Source: Tichowtungia aerotolerans
GTDB taxonomy: Bacteria; Verrucomicrobiota; Kiritimatiellia; Kiritimatiellales; Tichowtungiaceae
Assembly: GCF_009905215.1 (NCBI RefSeq)
Contig: NZ_CP047593.1
Location: 124,001 to 188,000, forward strand
DNA: 64,000 nt
Direction: 5' to 3'
Part shown: piece after piece, positions 4,121 through 59,307 of the stretch
Numbering within the stretch: position 1 is the first letter of the stretch
Layout of the letters: each line of letters starts with the position of its first letter
The notes under the pieces: model-generated
What the model saw: the letters and a program-made list of their open reading frames with translations, nothing else
Database searches by the model: none
What the model was told of the DNA's origin: nothing
Program-made: the position numbers and the translations under genes

Positions 4121-6553
4121 TTATTCTGCATCATGTTCGAGGATCATTGACTCTATATCCACCGTTCCCTGCCCGCTGATTATTACACGGAAATCCGCCA
4201 TGGCATTCTGGCTGTTCTTGAAATATGGACGATCGAGTTTAAAGACAATTTCCTGAGCCTCTCCGGGAGACTGCCTTGTTTTTTTCGGATGCGCTTTATA
4301 GGGGTTGGGAAAATCGCCTGCAGGCCACATAGAATTATATTGAAGTCCCACAGTCACCGGGGCATCACAGCTCAATGCAATCCGGACCTGCAGGTCATCA
4401 GCCAGTTCATTTTCCTTGGAAAAAGCATCATCCACTGTGACGTAGAAATAACGAGGACTCTTCGCGGAAGGAGCCAGCCTCCAAACGGATGCATCACCGT
4501 CCTTCACTACAGCAAACGCCCCGTCACCGGCACGCACCGGCTCCAGCCCGGACGGCCCTTCTCCTGCACGGGCCTCCAGCCGTTTTTTATGCATCCAGGG
4601 ACTGGTCAGCGGAAGTTTGTCTCCTTCCTGCTTCAGAGACATAAAGGTATGGGCATCCAGAAACTCGATATTTGCTGCGGGGTGTTGTTTGCGCAGTTCT
4701 GTCACGACATCGGCCACCATAGACGGACGGAACAGAATAAGGCGATAAGCGTAAAACTCAGGATAGATCAGTCCGGAGCCGGCCCGCTCAAACAACCGGG
4801 CCATTTCAGACGTGAACATGGCCTTGTCCCGATGATGGTAAGCCTGCGCAAACTTAACCGGAACTCCGGCAACCTCCTTCAGAGTCGCGGTTCGGTTCAG
4901 TCCCATCCCGGCCGGTGTCAGGGCGGCAATCGGCGCGAGGATCTCTTCAGTGAACTCCTGGTCGCTGATATAGAATGCCATCAGATCCATATTCAACCGA
5001 TCGAGATACGGCTTCGCCGCCTGACAATAGGCCTCATACCCGTCCTCTTTAATACGGCCGGTACGGTTACTGCCCACCAAATAATATGGGTCGACGTAAC
5101 CGGCTCCGTCATCGCCGATGCGGAAGAAATCCTGCTCGGTCCGGTTTTCCAGCAGATAGCGGAACACGTGCGGAACGCGATCCGAGAGGAGCGGATTAAT
5201 CGCCCAGTTCAACGGGACGGTTCCCCGGCCGGGACGATCATAAATCGTGTGGGCAATCTGGTTCAGCCATGCCGACCCGTCATGATCGAGCATAAACAGG
5301 CAGACATAGATTGTATCTTTTTTCAGCTCCGGCTTTTCCACTGCGGGATTTGTGAATTCCGACGGCTTCGGCAGCGGCAGATGACGGTAAAACGAAGCAT
5401 TGGACAGCCCGAATGCGGCATCGGCATCGTTCCACAGGTTATATGATGTCGCCAGCCGGATAAACGCCTGCTCCGCATCAATCGGCGGATGCGCGTTGCC
5501 AACGGCATCGGTGTATTTCACCCACCACGGAGCAAACCCGCCCATCACACCGAATGCTCCGTCACGTTGACGGTAACTTTCTTCCAGCAGATCATTCCAC
5601 AACCTCAGGTCTGTGCCGGGAACCTGTCTCAGATCATCATTGGGTGCTGCATCATCCAGCGGATAGAGGTCCACAAAAAGGCCGCGCTGCGAAATCCAGT
5701 AATCGCCGTTGTAAAGTCCGTTGTGCTGAAGGATATTGCGGTTGCCCAGATGCTTGTTTCCCCCATAACTGACAACCGGCGGGTTCCAGGTAAACGCATC
5801 CAGATTGTACCAGAGATGATACGGACTGGCCTTGCCGGATTTCAGGTACAGATCCAGCATCGTGCGGTAAATCAGTTCTTTACCGGTGATCCCCTGTTTG
5901 GCCGCTTTCGAGGCATACCCTGTAAAATTCTGAACAACCGGAAGCGAAATCCCTGACGCCGCAATCCTCTGTTGGAGAAACCCGTCGTCAAGATCTGCAC
6001 TCAACGGCAGAAGGTCCTCGCACCCGGCTGCCGTCAGCGCCAGATTCACAGAGGATGGAGTTTCCATATCCCACAGCGCCAGCCCATTGACCTCGTCGGC
6101 AAACACAGAAAGCAGATCTTTAACCGATTCGATCTCAACAACGGGCCGTTGTCCCAGCAGCCCCGACTGCTGAAGCCAAGCCAGCCAGCGGCGGTCCATC
6201 GACTCAAAATCTGCCTGTTTATCACGTCCCTTAATATGAAAACTATCCAGTTCCACCCCGATCAGGTTCACCGCGGCATCCAGAAACAGCCGCGACTCAT
6301 CGCGGTTCACGATGCCCTGCAGGGCCGTAATAAAATAGGTAGCGTTCACTTGTTTCTCAAGTGAGTCAAATCCCTCCTGTTCATAGATTTTCCAGAGATC
6401 CAGCACGTAAACCGAAGCATTCGGCTCCGAAACAACGGTCTGCTGGGCGCACGCCGAAACAGCCCCGACCAGACAGCCGGCTGAAATCACCGACGCAAAA
6501 ATCCGCCTCGTCCACTTTTTAAACCCGTTGGGAACAGAACATATTGTCATCAT
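4121..6553 (-). CDS. Exported GxGYxYP-domain protein, putative glycoside hydrolase, predicted lipoprotein
   Basis: About 810 residues. The leader ends in VSAC at about residues 32-35, an acceptable lipobox, so the protein is probably lipid-anchored. The N-terminal part (VYVLDLWKIYEQEGFDS, then ALQGIVNRDESRLFLD) is the recognisable opening of GxGYxYP-domain proteins. The name-giving motif appears in altered form as GAGYVDP, with Asp in place of the second Tyr. The C-terminal 120 residues look like a beta-sandwich accessory domain. Members of this family are often found in carbohydrate-utilisation loci, but I know of no firmly established activity. It is the third gene of the minus-strand run after the two GH38 genes, about 95 bp downstream. 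The start is ATG 6553, with GAAGGG six bases upstream; an in-frame TTG just before it is less likely. Confidence 0.6.
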   Translation of the reverse strand: MMTICSVPNGFKKWTRRIFASVISAGCLVGAVSACAQQTVVSEPNASVYVLDLWKIYEQEGFDSLEKQVNATYFITALQGIVNRDESRLFLDAAVNLIGVELDSFHIKGRDKQADFESMDRRWLAWLQQSGLLGQRPVVEIESVKDLLSVFADEVNGLALWDMETPSSVNLALTAAGCEDLLPLSADLDDGFLQQRIAASGISLPVVQNFTGYASKAAKQGITGKELIYRTMLDLYLKSGKASPYHLWYNLDAFTWNPPVVSYGGNKHLGNRNILQHNGLYNGDYWISQRGLFVDLYPLDDAAPNDDLRQVPGTDLRLWNDLLEESYRQRDGAFGVMGGFAPWWVKYTDAVGNAHPPIDAEQAFIRLATSYNLWNDADAAFGLSNASFYRHLPLPKPSEFTNPAVEKPELKKDTIYVCLFMLDHDGSAWLNQIAHTIYDRPGRGTVPLNWAINPLLSDRVPHVFRYLLENRTEQDFFRIGDDGAGYVDPYYLVGSNRTGRIKEDGYEAYCQAAKPYLDRLNMDLMAFYISDQEFTEEILAPIAALTPAGMGLNRTATLKEVAGVPVKFAQAYHHRDKAMFTSEMARLFERAGSGLIYPEFYAYRLILFRPSMVADVVTELRKQHPAANIEFLDAHTFMSLKQEGDKLPLTSPWMHKKRLEARAGEGPSGLEPVRAGDGAFAVVKDGDASVWRLAPSAKSPRYFYVTVDDAFSKENELADDLQVRIALSCDAPVTVGLQYNSMWPAGDFPNPYKAHPKKTRQSPGEAQEIVFKLDRPYFKNSQNAMADFRVIISGQGTVDIESMILEHDAE

Positions 6554-6649
6554 CAATCGCCCTTCTTCATTTGATCTTCATCATATCTGCTGTCCGCCTG
6601 GGATCCGCAATACGAATAACCTTTTTCACTTAACTCGTTCAAAAAATAC

Positions 6650-9517
6650 TTATCTGAAACACAGGGTCAGAATTTCCAGGGGCCGGAAAGTCAACTCGGT
6701 TTTATTTCCAAGGATCGGAAGTTCTTCGCCGGACGGAGACTCATCCAGATTAATTTTTTCCAATGTCTGGAAATCTGCCTGCAGAGTCAGCTTCGTCTTC
6801 ACCGGTTCCGGCGCACTGTTCCAGAGACGAAGAACCGTCGCGCCCTCTTCCGTGCGGTACAGCGCAGAAATCTGGACGTTCCGATTTTCCTCAATCTCCA
6901 GCAGCGACTGTTTCGGCGGCAGAATGCCCGGCTTCGGAACGCCCTGCAGCACACGCACCGGCGTACGGAAGTCATCGGCCTCCCAATGGATCCCCGCGTC
7001 GTTCCAGTTTCCGTCGTGCAGTGTCACGGCGTATTCAACCTCGTATGTTCCCTGCAGCTGGTGACCGTTGCTGCGATCCAGCTCTTCCGGCGTCATCTTG
7101 CCGCGGTTGGCTTTCATCGAAACACGCGTGGTGCGCAGCATCGTGACTGCCAAGGTACGATCCGCATCGTCGAACACTTCGTATTCCCCGACGCCCTTGC
7201 TCATAAAGCTGAATCCGGCTTTGTCGTCACTGACGGTGACAAAGCGCTGCATCGGCTGGAACGGATGATGCGGTTCCATGTTGTCCTTCGTGTCGTTCCA
7301 CAAAACACACCGCTTAATGACATCAAACGGACTGTCCGCGTAGGCGAAGTCGGTCTGAATGCCTGTCGGGAACAGCAGGCGCAAACGATGATCTTTGGCG
7401 CTGTTGTCAATCGTGGTTTTAAACTCAAGACGGCGGCTGCCTTTGGCCAGCGTCACGCGGGTGGAGATGGCAACCGGCACGGTATTACGCGAGCGGTCAG
7501 CGCCCTGCGCGCATTCCGGCACGGGAAGCGTCAGCTCAATCTGCCAGGTGGCACGCAGCGCATTGTTTTCAACCAGCGTCAGGTGTGCCGGTTCGCAAAG
7601 GCTGCTGACCACTGTATCGCGCAGAACGCCGCTGTGCTTGTGCGCATTGCCGGTGCTCGCATCGTCCGCCCAGACGTGCAGTCCCGCAGCCGTGCGACCG
7701 GTCTGCTTGTCGGTCAAATCCAGCGTGCCGTTCGGATTGATCTGCGCACGGACAAACTCGTTTTCGAGTATTCCGCTCTGAAACGCGATAAAGGACCGCT
7801 CCCCTTTCGGCTGCGGATTCGGTTCATACTCACGCAGGCGCGGTCGCACAGCCAGTGTGCGCCAGCCCATCGGCGGCAGCTCGATATCGATGAGCAACCG
7901 GTTGCGAAGGATGTCAAAAACCGCCGCGTTGGCGTCGAGCTTGCGTTCGACTTCCATATCGATGTCTTCGCGCTGAAAGACCGTATACGGAACCTTGTTT
8001 CCCTCTTCATCAATCAGATCGAAATATTGGAACGTCAGCATTTTGTCGGGCTCAAACCCTTCAACGATCGGGCCCACGCCGGTACAGGTTTCGACCTTGA
8101 AGTTTCCAAAGTTCGGGCGCGGCGTGTCGACAACGACCGATTCAATCCGCTTGCGGGTAACCGGCAGCGTATTGAAGAAGGTGAGCGTCAGATCGCCGTC
8201 CTCGAAGGTTCCGGCGGTGTCGATTTTCGTCCAGAGTTCTTCGGAGGCTTTGCGAGAACATTCGAGGGCAATCGACGTCGTGGCGTGAAAGCGGAACGGA
8301 TTGTCTTCGTGCGCCTGTGAAATCGCCGCGCCGCAGATGCTGTCGTGAGCATGGTTTTTCAGCAGGTACAGCCACGCCCGCTCGAGCAGAGCACTCTCAT
8401 ACGTACCGCCGCAGAGCGCACTCATCGCAGCCAGCGGTTCCGCTACATTGATCAGCTCGCGCTGTGCGAGATCGTTCTCTAATTTCAGATCCATCCGGGA
8501 AGAATGCGTCGCACCCAGCAGGCCGTTGAATCCGGCCTCAACGAGCGTATAACGCATTTCCCCGCGAAGAACGGGAACGGAATCTGCATCCAGCCCGTCC
8601 AGACAGGCATCGACGTATTCATCGATACCCGCCTGCTGAATCTGATACTCATCCTGTGCGGCATTGCAGGCGGCGATCAGCGCCGGCAGCTTTTCGTAAG
8701 GCACGGCGTTGTCTTCCATGTCGAGCGCAAGCAGCTGGCTGTTCACCATCTGCGGCTCAGCCTGCGCGCCGAGCATGCGGATTGCTTCGCGAATGGCCTC
8801 CGGATCGGCATTGAAATCCATGCTTTCGTTTTTGAGCTGGAAGGCCGTTTCGTACAGCCCGGCATCGGCCATGTGCACCGGCCAGTCGGAGGCATTCCAT
8901 TCTGTGCTCAGGTCGCGCGGATGTTTGCCGAGTACGAGTTTATAGTGCGGAAAGAAAAACCAGTTGGTGCGGGTGACTTCGTCAAAACAGCGCAGATGGA
9001 AGATCTGGGTTCCGTCCGGACTTTCGAGGCGGCAGATCGGCGGGACCTGTTCTTTATTGGTGCCGCGGTAGGAGAGCGCGGATTTCATGCCGAAGCCGGC
9101 ATAGATCTGCGCGAGCTGCGAAATCTGGCCGTAGGACGTCGCGGTATAACCGGCGTTGACGGCTCCGCCGAACCCGTCGGCCATGCGTTTGCCGATGAGC
9201 AGGTTGCGGATCAGCGACTCCGGCGCCACCGATGACATTTCCGGCAGCGTGTACCACATGACCGTCTGAATCCGCCCGGCGTTCATCAGTGCGCGCAGGC
9301 GTTCTTCGTTCTGCGGCCGGGCGCTGAGATAGTCCTCGATCACCACGGTGCCGCCGTCGAGCAGGAAGCACTTGTAGTCCGGATTGCGCTCCATAATATC
9401 GAGCAGTTCGTCGACCAGCTCCGCCAGCCGCAGCAGGGACTGCTCGGCCGTGAAGCGCCATTCCCGGTCCCAATGCGTTCCGGAGATTACATGAAAGGTT
9501 TTCTGTGCGTCAGACAT
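6650..9517 (-). CDS. GH38 alpha-mannosidase-family protein lacking the catalytic nucleophile
   Basis: A 955-residue cytoplasmic-looking protein (no signal peptide) with the overall plan of GH38 alpha-mannosidases. The zinc-site motif HWDREW is at residues 15-20, and NHAHDSICG marks the second zinc-histidine region at about residue 390. The central mannosidase domain and the C-terminal beta-domains follow. The segment that normally holds the Asp nucleophile and zinc ligand reads GYTATSYGQISQL (123-135). Aligned with GYAPDQFGLISQL of the neighbouring paralogue, the Asp becomes Thr127. Either the protein is catalytically inactive, or it works differently or on another substrate. The gene starts 35 bp after the intact paralogue, with AGGGA six bases before ATG 9517. 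No frameshift or stop suggests decay, so selection appears to maintain it. Confidence 0.85.
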   Translation of the reverse strand: MSDAQKTFHVISGTHWDREWRFTAEQSLLRLAELVDELLDIMERNPDYKCFLLDGGTVVIEDYLSARPQNEERLRALMNAGRIQTVMWYTLPEMSSVAPESLIRNLLIGKRMADGFGGAVNAGYTATSYGQISQLAQIYAGFGMKSALSYRGTNKEQVPPICRLESPDGTQIFHLRCFDEVTRTNWFFFPHYKLVLGKHPRDLSTEWNASDWPVHMADAGLYETAFQLKNESMDFNADPEAIREAIRMLGAQAEPQMVNSQLLALDMEDNAVPYEKLPALIAACNAAQDEYQIQQAGIDEYVDACLDGLDADSVPVLRGEMRYTLVEAGFNGLLGATHSSRMDLKLENDLAQRELINVAEPLAAMSALCGGTYESALLERAWLYLLKNHAHDSICGAAISQAHEDNPFRFHATTSIALECSRKASEELWTKIDTAGTFEDGDLTLTFFNTLPVTRKRIESVVVDTPRPNFGNFKVETCTGVGPIVEGFEPDKMLTFQYFDLIDEEGNKVPYTVFQREDIDMEVERKLDANAAVFDILRNRLLIDIELPPMGWRTLAVRPRLREYEPNPQPKGERSFIAFQSGILENEFVRAQINPNGTLDLTDKQTGRTAAGLHVWADDASTGNAHKHSGVLRDTVVSSLCEPAHLTLVENNALRATWQIELTLPVPECAQGADRSRNTVPVAISTRVTLAKGSRRLEFKTTIDNSAKDHRLRLLFPTGIQTDFAYADSPFDVIKRCVLWNDTKDNMEPHHPFQPMQRFVTVSDDKAGFSFMSKGVGEYEVFDDADRTLAVTMLRTTRVSMKANRGKMTPEELDRSNGHQLQGTYEVEYAVTLHDGNWNDAGIHWEADDFRTPVRVLQGVPKPGILPPKQSLLEIEENRNVQISALYRTEEGATVLRLWNSAPEPVKTKLTLQADFQTLEKINLDESPSGEELPILGNKTELTFRPLEILTLCFR

Positions 9518-47436: not shown

Positions 47437-47462
47437 AAAAAACGCGAACCCGAAGGTTCGCG
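47437..47462 (-). terminator. Rho-independent terminator after the secretin operon
   Basis: On the minus strand CGCGAACC (47462-47455) pairs with GGTTCGCG (47450-47443) around the stable loop TTCG, and six T residues follow. It lies about 40 bp after the stop of the second secretin gene and closes the three-gene unit. Confidence 0.92.
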
Positions 47463-47499
47463 TATGTAAGGGTTCATTTTTTGATCTCATTCAAAATGC

Positions 47500-49044
47500 T
47501 CAGGGAGCACTCTGAACAAGCCTCCCATTCGGCATCACCTTGCGGGCCGAAACAAGAATCATCAAATTGCGCTTCACGCTGCGCTCGCCTTCGGACCGGA
47601 ATAACCGGCCAATCAAGGGAACACTTCCTAAAACCGGAACCCGATCGCTAAAGCTTTCCGTTTTCTCGCTGATTAATCCGCCCATGCCAATCGTGCTGCC
47701 GTCCTTGATGGTCACACGTGTTTTGATTTCACGCTGACGGAAAATCGGCAGGCGCGCACGAATCGCGTCATGCTCATACGTCATCCCAATGCGATACTGA
47801 TACCACGTGTAGGACGAATCAGCCGGAGCCACTTCATAATTGCGCCATCCGACCAGATCTTTAACAACCGGATTGAGATCCATTTCGATCAAATCACTTT
47901 CGATCAGCTTCGGTTTAACCTCCAGCTCAACCCCCATCAGAGACTCCTCAAAATCCTGATAATCGGCATACACGATCGTCCCGCCGCTGGCACCCACTTC
48001 AAAGACTTCCGGGAAATAGTGCCGCTGTCCCACCTGGATCAACGCAGACTGCCCGGAACGGGTCACCACTCGGGGAGCCGACAAAACATCCGCTCCGGAA
48101 GTCTGATCAATGGCACGAACCAGCAGATCCAGATCGTTACCAATATCACCAGTAATCTTAAGTTCCCCAGCCTGATCATTAAAGCCGTCAACCAAGCGGC
48201 TCGCAGTCCAGTCACCGCTCTCGCCGTCAACTCCAAGACCTAAGGCCCCGGGCTTGTCAAACACGCCGGCGTCACCGGTGGTGCGCAGAGCTCCGGCAAA
48301 AAGGGATTCTCCGTCTTTGACGCTCCAGTCATCCGCCAGCGACTGGGCAGAAGAGTCCTGCACGTCGGACCACTCAAAACCCAGCTCTTCGAGCGCGCCT
48401 TCGGCGAATTCAATAAACCGGGTTTCGATTTCGATCTGTCCTTTGCGGCCATCCAGCGGCGCCTCGAGGGCCGCCAGAAGCTGCTCCAGCTCTTCAATCG
48501 TATCTTTGGTGTTGCAGACAACAATCTTTTTCAGCTTCGGACGGTAGACCGCATAAGCTCCATCCTCAAAGACAAGCGGCTCAAACAGACTGGAAACATC
48601 TACCGCCTCATCGGCATCCGACAGTTTCAGCTTCTGAATCGTCTCATCCGTCAGCGGATAGTTGCGCAGGATCATTCCGTTCCAGGCCTGCTCCACTGTT
48701 TGGATCGCATCGTCTTCAGCATTGCGCCGAAGCCGGGCGTTAATACGGCTCAAAAAATAGCGCGACAGCGCATGCGCCGGCATGGTTTCGAGAATCTTTT
48801 CGAACCCGGCAGCCGCCTGAAGGTAATCCCCTTCGGCATACAGGCGCATACTTTCATCGGACAGCTTTTCAATTTGTGCCGGTGTCAGCTCAGTCTGTTT
48901 CTGCTGAACAGCCTCAGACGCTGCCGGCTCGGTCGCAGGGCTTGTCGAAGCCAAATTGTCAGCAATGCCCGCAACAGACTCTTCAGCCTGCGTGAAGCAG
49001 GCGGCAGCCAAGAGGATTGCTGCGATTGTGGTTTGATTTTTCAT
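47500..49044 (-). CDS. Secretin-family outer-membrane protein with TPR-like N-terminus
   Basis: A 514-residue exported protein. After a signal peptide (about 1-20) comes a helical TPR-like part (SDESMRLYAEGDYLQAAAGFEKILETMPAHALSRYFL), then a secretin domain. Hallmarks are QIEIETRFIEF, DVLSAPRVVTRSGQSALIQVGQ, the ring motif GMGGLISEKTESFSDRVPVLGSVPLIGRLF, and the end segment SVKRNLMILVSARKV. Secretins form the outer-membrane gate of type II/III secretion and type IV pili. This one is short and has few N-domains. It lies 23 bp after a paralogous secretin gene and ends the operon. No ATPase, platform protein or pseudopilin gene is nearby, so it may depend on parts encoded elsewhere. GGAG precedes ATG 49044 by eight bases. 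Confidence 0.85.
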   Translation of the reverse strand: MKNQTTIAAILLAAACFTQAEESVAGIADNLASTSPATEPAASEAVQQKQTELTPAQIEKLSDESMRLYAEGDYLQAAAGFEKILETMPAHALSRYFLSRINARLRRNAEDDAIQTVEQAWNGMILRNYPLTDETIQKLKLSDADEAVDVSSLFEPLVFEDGAYAVYRPKLKKIVVCNTKDTIEELEQLLAALEAPLDGRKGQIEIETRFIEFAEGALEELGFEWSDVQDSSAQSLADDWSVKDGESLFAGALRTTGDAGVFDKPGALGLGVDGESGDWTASRLVDGFNDQAGELKITGDIGNDLDLLVRAIDQTSGADVLSAPRVVTRSGQSALIQVGQRHYFPEVFEVGASGGTIVYADYQDFEESLMGVELEVKPKLIESDLIEMDLNPVVKDLVGWRNYEVAPADSSYTWYQYRIGMTYEHDAIRARLPIFRQREIKTRVTIKDGSTIGMGGLISEKTESFSDRVPVLGSVPLIGRLFRSEGERSVKRNLMILVSARKVMPNGRLVQSAP

Positions 49045-49067
49045 GATTATTTCTCCTCTAAAACGGG

Positions 49068-50630
49068 TTAGTCAATTTGGGATGAACGGCGTCCATTTAC
49101 ATCCACCTGAGTTGCGGTTGCAAAAATCATCAGGTTGCGCTTCACGCTGCGCTCGCCTTCTGAGCGAAACAGGCGTCCGACGAACGGAATGGACCCCAGC
49201 ACTGGAACCTTATCTTTGTAGGTTTCGAGCTTTTCATAAATCAGCCCGCCCATGCCGACCGTACTGCCATCGGCAACCGTCAGGTTGCTTTCCAGCTTGC
49301 GAACCCGGAATACCGGCAGCGAACCATTCAACTGCGGAACCGGAACGCCGTATTCATCCATTGTCACGGCTCGACCCTGATCGTAATACTTCGGACCGCT
49401 GGTGAAGCTCTCTTCGTTGGGATCCTCGCCACCAAGGGTAGAGAACATGTTGTTCCAGGCAGTGTCTATCACTCCGGGCATATTGAGGATCGGGAAGCGT
49501 CCCTGAACCTTCATATCCGGCGCGGCGCGGCCCGCCCAAACCATCATCTCGGCATTGCCCGGCGTGATCTGATAATCATCAAACCCGATCAAATCAATCA
49601 CTTCCGGCTGAAGGTCCAGGTTAATGAGGCCGTCGTCGAGCACTTCCGGCGTCACCTTCAAGTAAACACCGAGATTCTGTCTTTCCCAGTCATCAAACTC
49701 TACATAGAGACTGCTCTCCTTCTGGCCTACCTGAAAAGCGGTCGGCATCATTTCCTGATCCCCCACCCAGATTTCCGCCATTTCGCCGTCCTGGGTCGTG
49801 ACGCTGGGCGCCGACAGGACATCGGCCCCGCCGGACTGCTCCAGAGCACTGATCACCAGATCGAGTGGAAGCCATCCGTCTTTGGTCAGCGTCATGCTGC
49901 CGGCACTGCCGGCATCCAGCGCGCTGGCCGCTGTGCGCAGCGTTCCGCCCAGTGTCTGGTTCGGCAAGTCTGCCAGCCAGTCCCCGGAGACCTGCCACGC
50001 CTCATTAAAGTTCCAGCTGAAACCAAGCTCATTCAGCACCTTCTGCTCCACTTCTACGAAACGGGTTTCAATCTCGACCTGACGATAATCGGTCACGTCG
50101 TGATGTTCAGCGAGCACATCGACCACCTGAAGCATTCCGGCGGCGGTTTGACGAACGATCAGTCGATTAAAATCGGGCCAGAAATCAGCCGCGCACTCTT
50201 CAGGAAAGTCGATCGTCTTGAAGAACGAACGTACATCAATTTTCGCCTGCCCCGGATTGGATCCGGCGAGCAACTCCTTAGCCACATCTTCTTTCACAGA
50301 AAACGTTTTCATCTGGATTTTATCCGTTGCATTCCAGGCCTGCTCAACCTCCATCAGCAGGTTGGCCCGAACTGTCTCCCGGACATTCTGGCGGAATGGC
50401 GCCGCCGCACCATGGATCGTGTTGCGAAGCTCATCCGCCGCAAAATCCACTGTATCCCCAACCGCCCGAACAGTATCAACGGGGGCTTCCCGAAGCGAGT
50501 CGACGGCTTTTTCAAGAACCACATCACTCTCATCCGACACGCCGGTCGACGAAGCAATCACCACTTCGGCGGAAGCCAACCCGCCAGCCATTGCGCCCGC
50601 AATGATAAGCTCACCTATGCACCTTTTCAT
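49068..50630 (-). CDS. Secretin-family outer-membrane protein, paralogue of the next gene
   Basis: A 520-residue exported protein with a signal peptide (about 1-21), a helical N-terminal region (VLEKAVDSLREAP and following) and a secretin domain. Key parts are QVEIETRFVEVEQKVLNELGFSW, DVLSAPSVTTQDGEMAEIWVGDQ, GMGGLIYEKLETYKDKVPVLGSIPFVGRLF and SVKRNLMIFATATQV. The C-terminal 60 residues are nearly the same as in the following gene (RSEGERSVKRNLMI is identical), while the N-terminal parts differ. Two similar but non-identical rings, or a mixed ring, are possible. AAGGAG lies six bases before ATG 50630, and the gene follows the 1306-residue exported protein after 65 bp. Confidence 0.85.
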   Translation of the reverse strand: MKRCIGELIIAGAMAGGLASAEVVIASSTGVSDESDVVLEKAVDSLREAPVDTVRAVGDTVDFAADELRNTIHGAAAPFRQNVRETVRANLLMEVEQAWNATDKIQMKTFSVKEDVAKELLAGSNPGQAKIDVRSFFKTIDFPEECAADFWPDFNRLIVRQTAAGMLQVVDVLAEHHDVTDYRQVEIETRFVEVEQKVLNELGFSWNFNEAWQVSGDWLADLPNQTLGGTLRTAASALDAGSAGSMTLTKDGWLPLDLVISALEQSGGADVLSAPSVTTQDGEMAEIWVGDQEMMPTAFQVGQKESSLYVEFDDWERQNLGVYLKVTPEVLDDGLINLDLQPEVIDLIGFDDYQITPGNAEMMVWAGRAAPDMKVQGRFPILNMPGVIDTAWNNMFSTLGGEDPNEESFTSGPKYYDQGRAVTMDEYGVPVPQLNGSLPVFRVRKLESNLTVADGSTVGMGGLIYEKLETYKDKVPVLGSIPFVGRLFRSEGERSVKRNLMIFATATQVDVNGRRSSQID

Positions 50631-50695
50631 TCCCTACTCCTTCTGCTATCCGCGCCCACTGGAGGCTGGCGGAATCTCTCTTTATTCACCGCACC

Positions 50696-53600
50696 TTAAT
50701 CGACCGTCACCTTGTAATAAACGGCCGGAACATCCACATGAATGATGTCGATGAACCGATTGGTCGTGAGCCCCACGGCTCCCTCCAGCGGCTTAAACTC
50801 CTCTGTAAGATTCAATGTGTACCAGACGGTATATGCGCGCCCCGGGGCGGCGACCCAGCTGATATCCCGCGCCCCATCGGCAGCAACGCTAAAGACCGAA
50901 TCAGCGCGGAGCGGATCGGTTCCGGCGATGAGTTCTTCATCGTAGGACATGCCGTCGCCATCGGCATCAAGCAAGTCGATCGGCATCGAACCGGGCGCGC
51001 TATTGGTCACAATGAGTGCGACAGTAACTTCTACCGGGTCCTTCTCATTATCATCCTCAGACGAAACTTCCAGCTGTGCATTACGAACCAGCTGATTGGT
51101 TCCGGATGGAATCAGGGTGGCGGCGTTGCCAATTACAGAAATCCGGTCACTGCTCCCCGGCTCCAGCGTTCCCTCAACCGGCGTATACGTGAAGTACTCT
51201 TCATCGGACGGCTGCAACCGGACTGACCGGGCAGCAGCTTCATTTACATAATTGGTGCGCGGGAACCCGTTGATATCGATCACCACCTCATCGGAAGGAA
51301 GCGTCAGCACACCGCCGGCAAACCGCGTAAGGCTTGAGAGCCTGGAGCGCACCCCCGCCACCGTGACCGGCCAGCTGATTCCGTTCAGATTGCGGTAATT
51401 GAACCGCACGGATCCATCGGAAAACAGCAAAGCCTGGAAGCTGATATCGGATCCAAAACTCGCACCGACCTGCTCCATATTCTCCCAGCTGACAACCAGC
51501 CGGTTGGTATCACCGCTCATGTAAATGGCGGCATTTTCATCCATGAAAAGGTATCCCCAGTACGGCGCAACAAACTGATCCGGCACGTTCGGACTGGCGG
51601 TCTGCAGATCATTGCCGGCCGCGATGCGGCCGCTCGCCCCCAGCGAAATCCCGCCGTTAACCCCAACCGACAGGTCCGTGTAGCTGCCGTCATAGAACGG
51701 GAAAGCAAACCCGATCGGAAGCAGCGCGCTGTACCCTTCGTTCGTGGCGTTGATGTACGGGCTGACGCCGGGGTCCTGCAGTTCAATGCGGTTCGTTTCG
51801 GCCGCGATGTCCACCCAGCTGTTTGTCAGGAACACTTCAAAGCCATACTGCTTCGACGCGGCATTGGAGTCGCCACTGATCGAATAGGTCAACGGCGCCG
51901 TGCCGGTGTTTGAAACCATAAAGCGTCCCTCAACCGACTGCCCCGCCTCCGCAAAAAGCTGCAGGTTATTGGTCGAAACCGCCAGCACCGGAACGGCGGC
52001 AACGACCGCGGCGTGAACATCAACGAAATCATTGCCCCCGCTGCTCCAGTTGAATGTTGTGTTGAAGAGGCTGGACTCCCCGGCAGCCTGCCCGGTGCCG
52101 TCGGCCGTAAAGACAACCGAAGCAGTACCAAATCCCGGCACCACTCCGGTCGTCGGGCTGTAAGAAACCCAGCGGTTTTCCGCCAGCGCCAGCGCCAGCG
52201 CGGTTCCGTCCGCCGGCAGGATCCCAAAATTTTCAAACTGATCGGATCCACCCTGGACTCCGACTGCGGCAAACGCGGCCTGGTTTTCCGAAATATTGTA
52301 GTAGCTGAATTTAAGCTCTCCGCTGGCGAAAAGTTCCGCCTGAAATTGAAGGTCGGTCTCTTTCGACACGCCGCTCAGAGTAACCTGATCGAACACAACG
52401 ACCAGCCGGTCCGCCTGATGGATCGTGCGCAGGCTGCCCTCCGGAATTCCCAGCTGCACATGGCGGAACGGGGCAATCAGCGGACGGTTGCCCAGCGGCA
52501 GCGCGCCAGTGGAATTATCGGCGATTTCCATATTTCCTGAAACGGGCTCTGTGGTGAGGATAATCGCGCCGTTCGAATCCACATAGAAATGGGTATAGAC
52601 GTTGCCGTAGAACGGGAAGGCGAAGCCAATGGCACGGGTATCACTCTGTCCGGACTCCGCTGCCGTAATCGTCGGAATCGAGGGATAAGGATCGTTGAGC
52701 AGCAGAACAGTCCCGCCGGTCTCCCGCGGCGAAACCGCCGCTGAGCTGCCAGTCGGAATGCTGCCCCAGCTGGCATTATCGTCCACCGTAAAAGTGAACG
52801 CCGCATTGCCGCTGTTGGAAATAACGACCACTCCGCTCGCGAAATGTCCTTCGGCGACGCTCAGATCGATCGTCCCCGGAGTCAGCGAGGGTATCGAGCG
52901 GTTAAAAACGGAAATCGAAAAGTTCAGCTCCCAGAACGTTGCGCCGGCGGTATTTTTAGCCGTAAAAGCTTCCTCGCCATCCGGAGCATCAAGAGGAATC
53001 ATAACCGTATACGTAGTCGAGGTGACGTCCCCAACCGACATTACGGCGTACAGGTCAGTGCCCGGCGCAACCTGCCAGCCGGATTCAGACACCAAGGCAT
53101 TCGTGATGCTGTTCACCGGGATCGCCCCGTCATTCGTGCTGGTAACGGTGATTTCGAGAATTTCGCCCGGTTCGTAAATTCCGGGCAGGTTGTTGACGCC
53201 GCCCGCCTCCACAATGGCATTCGTCGACAGCAGCAACGGCGAAATTTTGGGACCGACATCAAACACGAGCTCGAACGCCACCGGGTTAGGCTGCGAACTG
53301 TTGTTGTTATAGGTCACCTGAAGCGTATCCGTATACTGGCCCTGCCCCGGAGTGAGCGACGCATCCGCCGTCACCGCAATATTGGTGACCGCCCCCGCCG
53401 GAAGACTGAGAATTCCGCTCGGAACCTGCAGCCAGGCTTCGCTTTTGGACAGTTCATAGGACAGCGCCCAACCGGCCGTATTGGAAATCGTCAACTGGGC
53501 GACATCGGTGTCCGCCACATCACCGGACAGGGATGTTTTATCGATCGAAGCAAATGCCGTATTCAACACCTCCAGCTCCACATTAACCAAAAAATTGCTG

Positions 53601-54616
53601 GTTGAGCCGTCCGTACCGGTTCCCTGCATGTTAAGCGCAAATGCGTCCGAAAACACACCGGGCAGCGCATTGGAGGCAATGGATACATCAAACCGATTCG
53701 TCACGGATTCCCCGCGAAGGATCTGCGCCACAGCATTGGATCCGGAATGAACCGTCAGCCAGGGATAGTTGCTCTCCAGCTGAATGGTTACATTGGTTGC
53801 ATCATAGCCGTCATTTTGAATGACGAATGTGAGATTCGTGGTGACGCCGGGCTTTTGAGCCGGCTGCTCCGGCGCGGAGTCGGGATAAACCAAATCGCAG
53901 GGACCGAAACTCAGATCCTCCGTAACCAGCGTCAACAGCGGCGGATTCTCCGCGTCATTTCCAGCCCGGAAGCGATAATTTTTTGCTTCCGGCGCCACCT
54001 GATCCGCAGCGATACAGAAAAAGATATACTGATTGGTCGCCCCGGCGTCATACTGAGCCTGTACCCAAGCCGCCAGATCGCTCTGGGCGGTGGCCTGCCC
54101 GGTCAGATCATAAATACCTTCAGTGCCGCCGGCCGGAACAAACTCGGAGCTGATCGGGGTGCGCCCCGCAGCGCCCACGTATGGCCCCTGATAAAAGTCA
54201 GAAGCAGCCATCGCCGGAGACGGATCGACACGCAACCCATAAAGATCCAGCCCAAATGTAAATGATGTAGTAAATCTCCAATACATCATCATGGACAGGT
54301 TGGCCTGCACCACTTTGTGCCCCGGCGGCAGGGGCGGTAACTGAAACATCGTGACCCCGGCAACCGGAATATTTCCAAACGCATTCCCCACAAACATGAA
54401 ATTTGGAACCGTTGCGCCGTCCTCGGTCACACGCCCGTCACTCCCCGCGACACTGTTGATCTGAAAAGTGTCTGCAAACGCTGCGCAACAGGAAAAAAGC
54501 AGAGCTGCCGCAATAAATTCACGACCTCGCCGTGCAAGGAAAAACCGCCCCAGTGGAAAGACGCAACCCCACCGGTCCATCCCGATCTTCCGGGCGCCCG
54601 CTTTAATCGAATCCAT
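50696..54616 (-). CDS. Large exported beta-rich surface protein with duplicated FPFY domains and TSP3-like tail
   Basis: A 1306-residue protein. After a long leader (hydrophobic core FIAAALLFSCCAAFA) come an opening beta-domain (about 50-230), several Ig-like/BACON-like repeats (for example VADTDVAQLTISNTAGWALSY and PGQGQYTDTLQVTYNNN), and two related domains marked by IGFAFPFYGNVYTHFYVDSNGA and IGFAFPFYDGSYTDLSVGVNGG. The acidic LLDADGDGMSYDEELIAGTDP tail (TSP3/dockerin-like, Ca-binding) is followed by the end domain ISWVAAPGRAYTVWYTLNL. No catalytic motif was seen, so adhesion or a structural surface role is more likely than an enzyme. GGGAG lies about eight bases before ATG 54616; a longer frame from 54637 is less likely. 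It is the first gene of an operon with two secretins and may be their cargo. Confidence 0.8.
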   Translation of the reverse strand: MDSIKAGARKIGMDRWGCVFPLGRFFLARRGREFIAAALLFSCCAAFADTFQINSVAGSDGRVTEDGATVPNFMFVGNAFGNIPVAGVTMFQLPPLPPGHKVVQANLSMMMYWRFTTSFTFGLDLYGLRVDPSPAMAASDFYQGPYVGAAGRTPISSEFVPAGGTEGIYDLTGQATAQSDLAAWVQAQYDAGATNQYIFFCIAADQVAPEAKNYRFRAGNDAENPPLLTLVTEDLSFGPCDLVYPDSAPEQPAQKPGVTTNLTFVIQNDGYDATNVTIQLESNYPWLTVHSGSNAVAQILRGESVTNRFDVSIASNALPGVFSDAFALNMQGTGTDGSTSNFLVNVELEVLNTAFASIDKTSLSGDVADTDVAQLTISNTAGWALSYELSKSEAWLQVPSGILSLPAGAVTNIAVTADASLTPGQGQYTDTLQVTYNNNSSQPNPVAFELVFDVGPKISPLLLSTNAIVEAGGVNNLPGIYEPGEILEITVTSTNDGAIPVNSITNALVSESGWQVAPGTDLYAVMSVGDVTSTTYTVMIPLDAPDGEEAFTAKNTAGATFWELNFSISVFNRSIPSLTPGTIDLSVAEGHFASGVVVISNSGNAAFTFTVDDNASWGSIPTGSSAAVSPRETGGTVLLLNDPYPSIPTITAAESGQSDTRAIGFAFPFYGNVYTHFYVDSNGAIILTTEPVSGNMEIADNSTGALPLGNRPLIAPFRHVQLGIPEGSLRTIHQADRLVVVFDQVTLSGVSKETDLQFQAELFASGELKFSYYNISENQAAFAAVGVQGGSDQFENFGILPADGTALALALAENRWVSYSPTTGVVPGFGTASVVFTADGTGQAAGESSLFNTTFNWSSGGNDFVDVHAAVVAAVPVLAVSTNNLQLFAEAGQSVEGRFMVSNTGTAPLTYSISGDSNAASKQYGFEVFLTNSWVDIAAETNRIELQDPGVSPYINATNEGYSALLPIGFAFPFYDGSYTDLSVGVNGGISLGASGRIAAGNDLQTASPNVPDQFVAPYWGYLFMDENAAIYMSGDTNRLVVSWENMEQVGASFGSDISFQALLFSDGSVRFNYRNLNGISWPVTVAGVRSRLSSLTRFAGGVLTLPSDEVVIDINGFPRTNYVNEAAARSVRLQPSDEEYFTYTPVEGTLEPGSSDRISVIGNAATLIPSGTNQLVRNAQLEVSSEDDNEKDPVEVTVALIVTNSAPGSMPIDLLDADGDGMSYDEELIAGTDPLRADSVFSVAADGARDISWVAAPGRAYTVWYTLNLTEEFKPLEGAVGLTTNRFIDIIHVDVPAVYYKVTVD

Positions 54617-54751
54617 TCTAAATTCTCCCAAAAACATGCACTTTCAGATGAAACATAACTGTCCAGCAAAGCCAGATCGAAGGTCCGATCCACAGCTCAC
54701 CAGCGAGAGTACAGCTTCCCAAACCGCCACGGGATTGCAAGAAAAAATAAA

Positions 54752-56382: not shown

Positions 56383-59307
56383 ATGAACAATTTACAAACC
56401 ATTCGCGCAGCACTGTTCGATCTGGACGGCGTTGTCTGTTTTACCGATCACTACCACTATCTGGCGTGGAAAGAAATGGCCGATGCCCAGGGGTGGGACT
56501 TCAACGAAACGATCAACCATCAGCTGAGGGGCATCCCCCGCGAGGCATCCCTGGAGGTGATCCTGAATCACAACGGCGTTACACTGGATCCTCAGAAAAA
56601 GCAGGAGCTGGCGCACCTGAAAAATGAGCGGTACAAAGAACTGCTTCAGCAAATCGATTCCGACGCGCTGTATCCGGGAATTGTTGAGTTCATCACCGCG
56701 CTGCGCGAACGGGGCGTAAAAATCGCACTCGGCTCGTCCAGCAAGAATGCCGGAGCCATTCTCGACAAGCTCAGCCTGACCGTGCTGTTTGACGCTGTTG
56801 TAACCGGCAACGACATTGAAAAGCCGAAACCGGATCCGGAAATCTTTTTAAAAGGAGCGGAACTGCTGGGCATCCACCCGTTCAACTGCGTGGTTTTTGA
56901 GGATGCCGAAAGCGGTGTTGAGGCGGGCCTGCAGGGCGGCATGAAGGTGGTTGGGGTCGGCACGCCGGCCACCCTGCCCAATGCTCCCACTGTTGTCCGT
57001 GACTATCAGAAGGACATCGATCTGGACACGCTGCTGCAGATCGGAAAACCCGCGCGCATCAGCGCCCATCCCTGGGAGGTTGTTGAGGACACGTTTGTTC
57101 CCGGAAAGGCCGGATACTGGGAAAGCATTTTTGCGCTCAGCAACGGAGTTCTCGGCCTGCGCGGTGCGATCGAGGAAAACTCTCCAAACGCAACAGAGCA
57201 GCCGGGAATGTTCATCAACGGGATCTATGCGTTCTCCTCACCGAAGGGCTACCCCAACCGGCCGGACGGCACTCCGCCGAAAAGCCAGGTGATGCTGAAC
57301 CTCTGCGACTGGCGGCCGATCGACCTGTTTATCGGCGGCGAAAAAGTCGACGTGCTTTCCGAGCACTGCAGCGAACACAACCGCACCCTGAACATGAAGA
57401 CCGGCATTCTGACACGCTCCTTCGTCTGGAACGGAGAAGAAGGAGCTGTACGGGTCACACTCCGCAGGCTGGTTTCCATGACACGCCGCCACAATGCCGC
57501 CATTGAATTGACGCTGGAAGCGCTCGACCGCCCCCTGAATGTATCCATTGAGTCCAGAGTTTTCGGGAAAAGCATCACGGGTCAGTTCGGTCTGGACGGA
57601 ACCACGCTGCAGAATGCAGAGATTGATAAAGATGCCGCCACCCTGCAGTTCAAGACCCTCAACTCCGGCCTCAGCTATTCCGCATCGTTCAGCCATTCGG
57701 ACTCCTGTTCAAAAAACCATGCGTGGACACAAAACGACGCCGACCTGTGTTATCAAGCCGACCTCTCCCTGACTCCCGGCACGCCGTACCGTCTCGAAAA
57801 GCATGCGGCATTTGTCTCCTGCATGGATGAAGGAGATCCGGCAGAGGATGTCCGGCAGGCATCCGCAGACGGGTTCGAAACACTTGCCGCGGAGCAGACC
57901 GAATACTGGCGGCGGGTTTGGGAACAGTGCGATGTGAAAATCGAGGGATCCGTCGAAGACCAGCAGGCCATCCGGTATAATATTTTTCAGCTGCACCAAA
58001 ACCACCCGATGGACATGCAGCGGTCGATTTCCGCCACAGGCGTCACCGGAGCCAACTATATGGGCTGGATCTTCTGGGACACCGAAATGTTCATGGCACC
58101 GCTTTTCACCTACACGGCCCCGGAACGCACGCGCGCCCTGCTGGCATTCCGCTACGGCCAGCTGGATGGCGCCCGCCGGATCGCAAAAAATCTCGGCCGC
58201 CGAGGAGCCCTGTGGCCCTGGTCCACCATCAATGGCGACGAATCCAACGCAGACCCGTATGTTTCGACAGCTCAATATCACATTGTGGCAGATGTCGCCC
58301 ATGCCCTGCACCGCTACTGGCAGGCGACGGGCGACGACGACTTTCTCTTTGCGCAGGGCGCGGAAATGCTTTTTGAGACATGCCGCCTCATCGCAAGCAT
58401 TGGATGCTTCGTGCCGAACAAAGGCAATCGCTACTGCATCAATACGGTTTGCGGACCGGACGAATACAACTTTCCGGTCAACAACAACTGCTACACCAAC
58501 CTGATGTTTAAATGGCAGCTGGAATTCGCCCAGTCCGTGCTGAACCGGATGGCACAACACTGCCCGGAACGCCTGGCGGAACTCCAGAAAGCCATCGGGC
58601 TGACAGAGGAAGAAACCGCTGAATGGAAAACGATTGCCGAGCAGATGTATGTACCGACCAGCGAAACGCTGGGAATCTACAAACAGGACGACCAGTATCT
58701 GGACAAATATCCGGTCGACATGAGCACCCTGCCCCGCAACTATGAATTCAAAAAGGATGTCTACCTGCTTTCGCTGCTGCAGATGCAGGTCAGCAAGCAG
58801 GCCGATGTCGTTCAGATGCTCTTTACGCTCTCCGAGCGCTTCACCCCGGAGCAGAAAAAGGCAAACTACGATTTCTACGAGCCCCGCACAACCCACGCGT
58901 CGAGCCTCTCGCCCTGCGTTCACGGCATCACCGCGGCTGAAATCGGCTATACTGAAGAGGCCCTGAACTACTGGAAACAGAGTGTGCTCATGGACCTCGA
59001 CGACTGCAAAAACAACACCTCTTCCGGCATCCACCTGGCCTGCTCCGGCGGAGCCTGGATGATGCTGATGTTCGGATTCCTCGGCATGCGAACGGAAGAA
59101 AACCGCATTCAATTTTCGCCGCGAATTCCGAAGGAATGGGACGGAATAGAAACAAGCCTTATCTATCAAGGCACCCGGTTCAATATCAAGGTCACCCCCG
59201 ACCAAACCGATGTCACTTGGACTGCGGGGCCGGCTCTCCAGATTCAGATTAGAGACACTCAAAAAAACCTGTCCAGCAGCGAAAAGATTTTCTCACTTGC
59301 ACACTAA
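56383..59307 (+). CDS. Bifunctional beta-phosphoglucomutase - GH65 glycoside phosphorylase fusion
   Basis: A 974-residue cytoplasmic fusion. Residues about 1-220 are a HAD-type beta-phosphoglucomutase: nucleophile motif FDLDGVV, then GSSSKNAG, KPKPDPEIF and VFEDAESGVEAG. Residues about 230-960 are a GH65 phosphorylase: GYWESIFALSNGVLGLRG at the start of the beta-sandwich, WDTEMFMAPLF and LWPWSTINGDE in the barrel, catalytic acid E694 in CGPDEYN, and a phosphate-binding region around THASSLSPCVHGI. GH65 enzymes cleave alpha-glucosides such as maltose, trehalose or kojibiose with phosphate to give beta-glucose 1-phosphate, which the mutase turns into glucose 6-phosphate. Normally these are two separate adjacent genes. 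The disaccharide preference cannot be read here; the co-encoded sulfatase hints at a sulfated substrate. Confidence 0.92.
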   Translation: MNNLQTIRAALFDLDGVVCFTDHYHYLAWKEMADAQGWDFNETINHQLRGIPREASLEVILNHNGVTLDPQKKQELAHLKNERYKELLQQIDSDALYPGIVEFITALRERGVKIALGSSSKNAGAILDKLSLTVLFDAVVTGNDIEKPKPDPEIFLKGAELLGIHPFNCVVFEDAESGVEAGLQGGMKVVGVGTPATLPNAPTVVRDYQKDIDLDTLLQIGKPARISAHPWEVVEDTFVPGKAGYWESIFALSNGVLGLRGAIEENSPNATEQPGMFINGIYAFSSPKGYPNRPDGTPPKSQVMLNLCDWRPIDLFIGGEKVDVLSEHCSEHNRTLNMKTGILTRSFVWNGEEGAVRVTLRRLVSMTRRHNAAIELTLEALDRPLNVSIESRVFGKSITGQFGLDGTTLQNAEIDKDAATLQFKTLNSGLSYSASFSHSDSCSKNHAWTQNDADLCYQADLSLTPGTPYRLEKHAAFVSCMDEGDPAEDVRQASADGFETLAAEQTEYWRRVWEQCDVKIEGSVEDQQAIRYNIFQLHQNHPMDMQRSISATGVTGANYMGWIFWDTEMFMAPLFTYTAPERTRALLAFRYGQLDGARRIAKNLGRRGALWPWSTINGDESNADPYVSTAQYHIVADVAHALHRYWQATGDDDFLFAQGAEMLFETCRLIASIGCFVPNKGNRYCINTVCGPDEYNFPVNNNCYTNLMFKWQLEFAQSVLNRMAQHCPERLAELQKAIGLTEEETAEWKTIAEQMYVPTSETLGIYKQDDQYLDKYPVDMSTLPRNYEFKKDVYLLSLLQMQVSKQADVVQMLFTLSERFTPEQKKANYDFYEPRTTHASSLSPCVHGITAAEIGYTEEALNYWKQSVLMDLDDCKNNTSSGIHLACSGGAWMMLMFGFLGMRTEENRIQFSPRIPKEWDGIETSLIYQGTRFNIKVTPDQTDVTWTAGPALQIQIRDTQKNLSSSEKIFSLAH

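Follow-up and report, generated by a model that had tools for sequence, protein, structure and literature searches.

The window, a 64,000-nucleotide stretch of the single-contig, 3.88-Mb genome of Tichowtungia aerotolerans, carries a gene for a large exported surface protein, here called the cargo, followed by two tandem secretin genes, SnA and SnB. The three probably form one functional unit, and from their sequences we propose, with a probability of about 0.5, that SnA and SnB are dedicated to the protein encoded beside them and act as its outer-membrane gate or display port. Known secretins, to our knowledge, have a partner that pushes the substrate, be it a pilus, pseudopilus, injectisome, or phage; a pair without the usual secretion machinery suggests a stripped-down route for large proteins to the cell surface. 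If the proposal is right, a pilus secretin has been stripped of its docking domains, doubled, and tied to one surface protein, and the system would show the minimal needs of a secretin for the export or display of a folded protein.

The unit lies entirely on the minus strand and consists, in order, of the all-beta cargo (50696-54637; 1,313 aa from the first ATG at 54637, or 1,306 aa from the ATG at 54616), SnA (49068-50630, 520 aa), SnB (47500-49044, 514 aa), and a strong intrinsic terminator (47442-47463) with a 9-bp GC-rich stem, a loop of 4, and a TTTTT tail. The open reading frames, the matches to the secretin profile PF00263 (E = 3.4e-34 for SnA and 6.4e-34 for SnB, the latter also matching TPR_19), and the terminator bear out the order of surface protein, secretin, secretin, and terminator proposed in an earlier note on this DNA. 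Cargo and SnA are separated by 65 nt (50631-50695), SnA and SnB by 23 nt (49045-49067), and a Shine-Dalgarno-like AGGAG stands right before SnA and also precedes SnB; the 65-nt gap with its AGGAG suggests that cargo and SnA may be co-transcribed. ORF lists and Pfam showed no ATPase, platform, or pilin gene within the unit or next to it. The earlier statement that no other secretion genes accompany the pair therefore holds for the window but fails for a related subclade, in which the pair belongs to a TPR/ExbB/ExbD operon. Elsewhere in the window, a single 974-aa frame (56383-59307) reads, without profile searches, as a beta-phosphoglucomutase-like HAD domain fused to a GH65-type phosphorylase.

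A chance arrangement is excluded because the same arrangement recurs in relatives. SnA is present in 12 of the 14 genomes that we call the family (G000-G013, all one genus group); carriers of the pair are marine and sediment bacteria, often with several copies per genome and at most six pairs (in G004). A pair in all 14 genomes was rejected, G010 and G011 having no SnA and only the long single type. The tandem order is kept, with gaps of 22-29 nt in 12 of 14 measured pairs; L060, a candidate SnB-only locus, was ruled out by a full SnA at 6534-8303. The placement inside a T2SS or T4P operon that the earlier note had considered for relatives was not seen within the family, where none of the loci read has T2SS or T4P genes beside the pair.

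The large protein, too, is conserved beside the secretins, as the earlier note had supposed. Among 18 loci with the cargo core (the search set plus L064, added by tblastn), 14 adjoin a pair, three lie at contig edges (G004:C95, G004:C61, and G001:C6), and one, L221 (G004:C73), stands alone. The cargo is on the same strand as the pair in 10 of 10 loci, upstream of it in one subclade and downstream in others, and in G003 a different large beta-rich protein occupies its place. The L052 pair is adjoined by a small PEP-CTERM protein (L052:10722-11516), not a large protein.

Within the T. aerotolerans genome, the cargo core occurs at only two places, both beside a secretin pair. PF00263 has 13 matches there, four of them pieces of a second tandem pair, L014 (3.719-3.722 Mb; 567 and 538 aa); after this pair comes a 717-aa protein that is 25% identical to the cargo across some 790 residues. 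In a third cassette, L015, a single longer secretin (683 aa, with a weak STN match) precedes a 908-aa LTD/TSP3 protein. Cassettes of this kind, in which a single longer secretin of the SnA/SnB clade is followed by an LTD/TSP3-like protein of 587-2012 aa, occur once per genome in the family members read (L015:2788-7617, L143, L144, L145, L150, L151, L171, and L173).

The cargo comprises a signal peptide, Ig-like repeats of the NEW3/BACON/HYDIN type, two repeats with a conserved GFxFPFxGxxYT motif, a TSP3-type repeat, and a C-terminal domain of about 90 aa. Its Pfam matches are NPCBM_assoc (1.4e-8), HYDIN-like Ig (1.2e-5), and TSP3_bac (3.3e-5), and its AF2 model is all-beta (pLDDT 69); a search for a specific fold or PDB relative returned generic Ig-array matches only. 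The C-terminal domain, marked by W, R-x-Y, Y-x-D, and a YYKVTVE-like end, is common to many large proteins and may serve, specifically in this lineage, to sort or anchor them. Its 34 places in the genome rule it out as a secretin-specific signal, and since about 30 of them lie away from SnA/SnB-type secretins, they weaken the word "dedicated" in our proposal. The cargo may therefore leave by a general route used by all proteins with this domain, the pair being a stable neighbor with another job, and the lone cargo gene at L221 is in keeping with this. We regard it as unlikely, because the cargo core, in contrast to the C-terminal domain, hardly occurs away from secretin pairs, and because cargo distances track those of the secretins.

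Both secretins clearly belong to the secretin superfamily, scoring 117 and 118 bits against PF00263 (curated cut-off 27.5), a profile matched by all 29 aligned homologs (13 SnA, 16 SnB); apart from the TPR of SnB, no other Pfam match was found in either. The earlier note was right that both hold the C-terminal ring motif (PF00263 E about 1e-34) and a common stretch, RSEGERSVKRNLMI, which is present exactly in SnA and SnB. The corresponding C-terminal stretch of the more distant single secretin at L015 is RSEGERSVKRNLLI. The whole clade has RSEGERSVKRNLMI as its C-terminal signature; the stretch therefore speaks for kinship and is by itself no sign of pairing in a hetero-ring.

An AF2 model of SnB, of middling confidence (pLDDT 62), shows a signal peptide, a TPR region (residues 55-120), one N3-like ring-building domain (124-194), and the secretin barrel (203-503); in structural alignment it matches N3 and the barrel both of GspD (starting near residue 240) and of pIV (109-403), in each case with Z = 11.3. 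Profile searches found no N0/STN match in the 13 SnA or 16 SnB proteins, although N0-N2 could escape profiles, and weak Secretin_N matches appeared in 2 of the 16 SnB. SnB would thus be composed of an N3-like domain, barrel, and TPR only, no match having been found for the platform-docking N0-N2 domains. SnA has an insertion near residues 376-425, in the outer-barrel region, which the variability profile of a 13-homolog alignment shows to be absent at one extreme and to reach about 60 residues or more at the other; we infer that it faces outwards.

These domain differences bear on whether SnA and SnB could be alternative outer-membrane ports for T2SS or T4P inner-membrane platforms encoded elsewhere. 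Orphan secretins with a platform in trans exist, such as XqhA of Pseudomonas aeruginosa, and complete type IV filament operons (L016, L017, and L018, with gene roles assigned from order, size, and sequence) are encoded elsewhere in the T. aerotolerans genome. Each of these operons, however, has its own secretin matching N0/STN or Secretin_N, domains that SnA and SnB lack or show weakly, and we consider such platform sharing improbable.

The origin of the pair can be traced through its relatives. The best named family for all scanned paired and single homologs is NF042912 (Amuc_1098); the Amuc_1098 secretin is abundant in the outer membrane of Akkermansia (PMC4960237). Across 289 genomes of the phylum, no short paired form was found outside the family. 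The sister family has a single homolog of 720-750 aa, 34% identical to the L015 secretin, beside PilM/N/O-like genes, and similar arrangements recur deeper in the phylum; outside the family these gene names rest on gene order and size, without profile searches, and PilM/N/O-like genes flank only the single long homologs there. Because homologs outside the family adjoin PilM/N/O-like genes, the secretins were co-opted and not invented.

In a tree made by a quick method, with SH-aLRT support only, SnA forms one clade (100) and SnB another (99), and the two are sisters (97). The SnA and SnB trees run parallel in their subclades, and paralogs within a genome fall in matching subclades too: type I holds the window pair, L052, L054, and L059, with L179 added for SnA; type II holds L014 and others; and type III holds L062, L063, L064, L066/L067, and L166. 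Pairwise distances correlate at 0.89 for SnA-SnB, 0.63 for SnA-cargo, and 0.69 for SnB-cargo (all p <= 0.0002), in part through shared species history. As judged from these trees and distances, SnA and SnB arose by one duplication of an Amuc_1098-type pilus secretin and were kept as an adjacent, co-evolving pair. In other Kiritimatiellales, tandem arrays of long Amuc_1098-type secretins, with two or three genes each, occur (L175, L178, and L181), and doubling has therefore happened more than once. Descent from an Amuc_1098-type secretin and the loss of the PilM/N/O neighbors might also mark the pair as the decaying remnant of a pilus operon; against this, frames are intact, barrel motifs are near-invariant, and whole cassettes have been duplicated repeatedly, so this reading is very improbable.

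The type III subclade links the pair to a motor. At L067 (G007), one strand carries p191, a TPR protein (1,041 aa), a small TPR protein, ExbB, ExbD, ExbD2, SnA, and SnB; the order in G003, which spans two contigs with fitting ends (L226 and L066) whose join is our reading, is large protein, SnA, SnB, p191 homolog, TPR, small TPR, ExbB, ExbD, ExbD2, and transducer. The ExbD and ExbD2 genes of L066 and L067 were detected by tblastn. The motor set of TPR, ExbB, two ExbD, and transducer is complete in L066/L226 and lacks the transducer in L067, and motor pieces linked to type III pairs or p191 cargo loci also occur in L062, L063, L099, and L166. The transducer combines a His-bearing, TonB-like membrane helix and a Pro/Lys-rich linker with a C-terminal domain whose PA14 match stays below threshold. 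TonB/TolA-like proteins with such a weakly PA14-like C-terminus in place of vWA are encoded at L096:8034-9146, L066:151-1272, and L097:13696-14844.

Two copies of the motor in its close form (L096 and L097) are encoded in the T. aerotolerans genome, both away from the pairs, with none near the window pair. The ExbB-ExbD DNA of these two loci (L096:9030-10908 and L097:11931-13812) is 92% identical over 1.9 kb, the flanking TPR genes being far apart, which makes gene conversion between the ExbB-ExbD parts probable. The close form was absent from searches of G002, G005, and G008; since G002 bears two pairs and only a distant motor form, the close form is ruled out as a universal partner.

A TolQR-like motor with a TPR partner and a vWA force transducer has been described from T. 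aerotolerans itself, its function being given as unknown (PMC12204202), and the operon link gives this module a candidate partner. The link also opens a reading in which the secretin pair and the surface protein make up a trans-envelope complex for adhesion or force transmission, not an exporter: the rings would be a passage or anchor through which motor-driven TPR and transducer proteins reach the Ig-like protein, as in gliding-type machines. The operon with TPR, ExbB, ExbD, ExbD2, and a TonB-like transducer of weakly PA14-like C-terminus, the retention of the link in three different gene orders, the Ig-like array of the cargo, and the published view of the module as a putative force transducer (PMC12204202) all suit it. 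The motor is linked in one subclade only, however, is missing near the window pair, and was not found in its close form in G002; we hold this reading to be rather unlikely.

Under the gate or display port that we favor, the surface protein would cross the inner membrane by Sec, and SnA and SnB would assemble in the outer membrane, either into a single mixed ring or into two rings that cooperate, with the SnB TPR perhaps serving as a built-in pilotin. The surface protein would then exit, or be held and displayed, through the secretin gate, with no piston of the pilus type. Should energy be required, a TolQR/ExbBD-type motor, together with a TPR partner and a TonB-like transducer, might supply it, possibly assisted by proton motive force; this putative energizing motor shares an operon with the pair in one subclade and is encoded apart from it in the window genome. 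That a motor drives the port at all is a tentative suggestion. The fullest version, a two-secretin port for giant Ig-like surface proteins in which a proton-powered TolQR/ExbBD-type motor, TPR scaffold, and TonB-like transducer replace the ATPase-driven pilus, is speculative and on balance doubtful.

Co-option of secretins is a known theme (PMC6668835); subscription journals aside, a literature search on orphan or paired secretins and on links between secretins and Exb proteins turned up no relevant work. The motor shares with the published module the set of TPR, ExbB, two ExbD, and TonB-like transducer, and differs in a transducer C-terminus that is weakly PA14-like instead of vWA and in a secretin link that goes unmentioned in the portion of that source available (PMC12204202). 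With Amuc_1098, SnA and SnB share a TPR-plus-secretin plan, common descent by tree, and best named family (NF042912, 1e-54 and 1e-51), but their scores of 184.8 and 175.7 bits, far below the cut-off of 750, place them outside this type IV pilus family; they are also shorter (about 515 versus about 800 aa), paired in tandem, and set beside a surface protein gene without PilM/N/O neighbors. The secretin fold, N3-like domain, and C-terminal barrel motif are shared with GspD of the T2SS and PilQ of the T4P, whereas the lack of N0-N2 matches and of an ATPase, platform, and pseudopilins at the locus sets the pair apart and leaves it outside the T2SS. Joint top in structural likeness, with Z = 11.3 over N3 and barrel, is pIV, likewise a short secretin, which needs no type IV filament for its work. 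That secretin carries an N0 domain, at the position of which SnB has its TPR, and here two genes and a large surface protein stand in place of phage extrusion.
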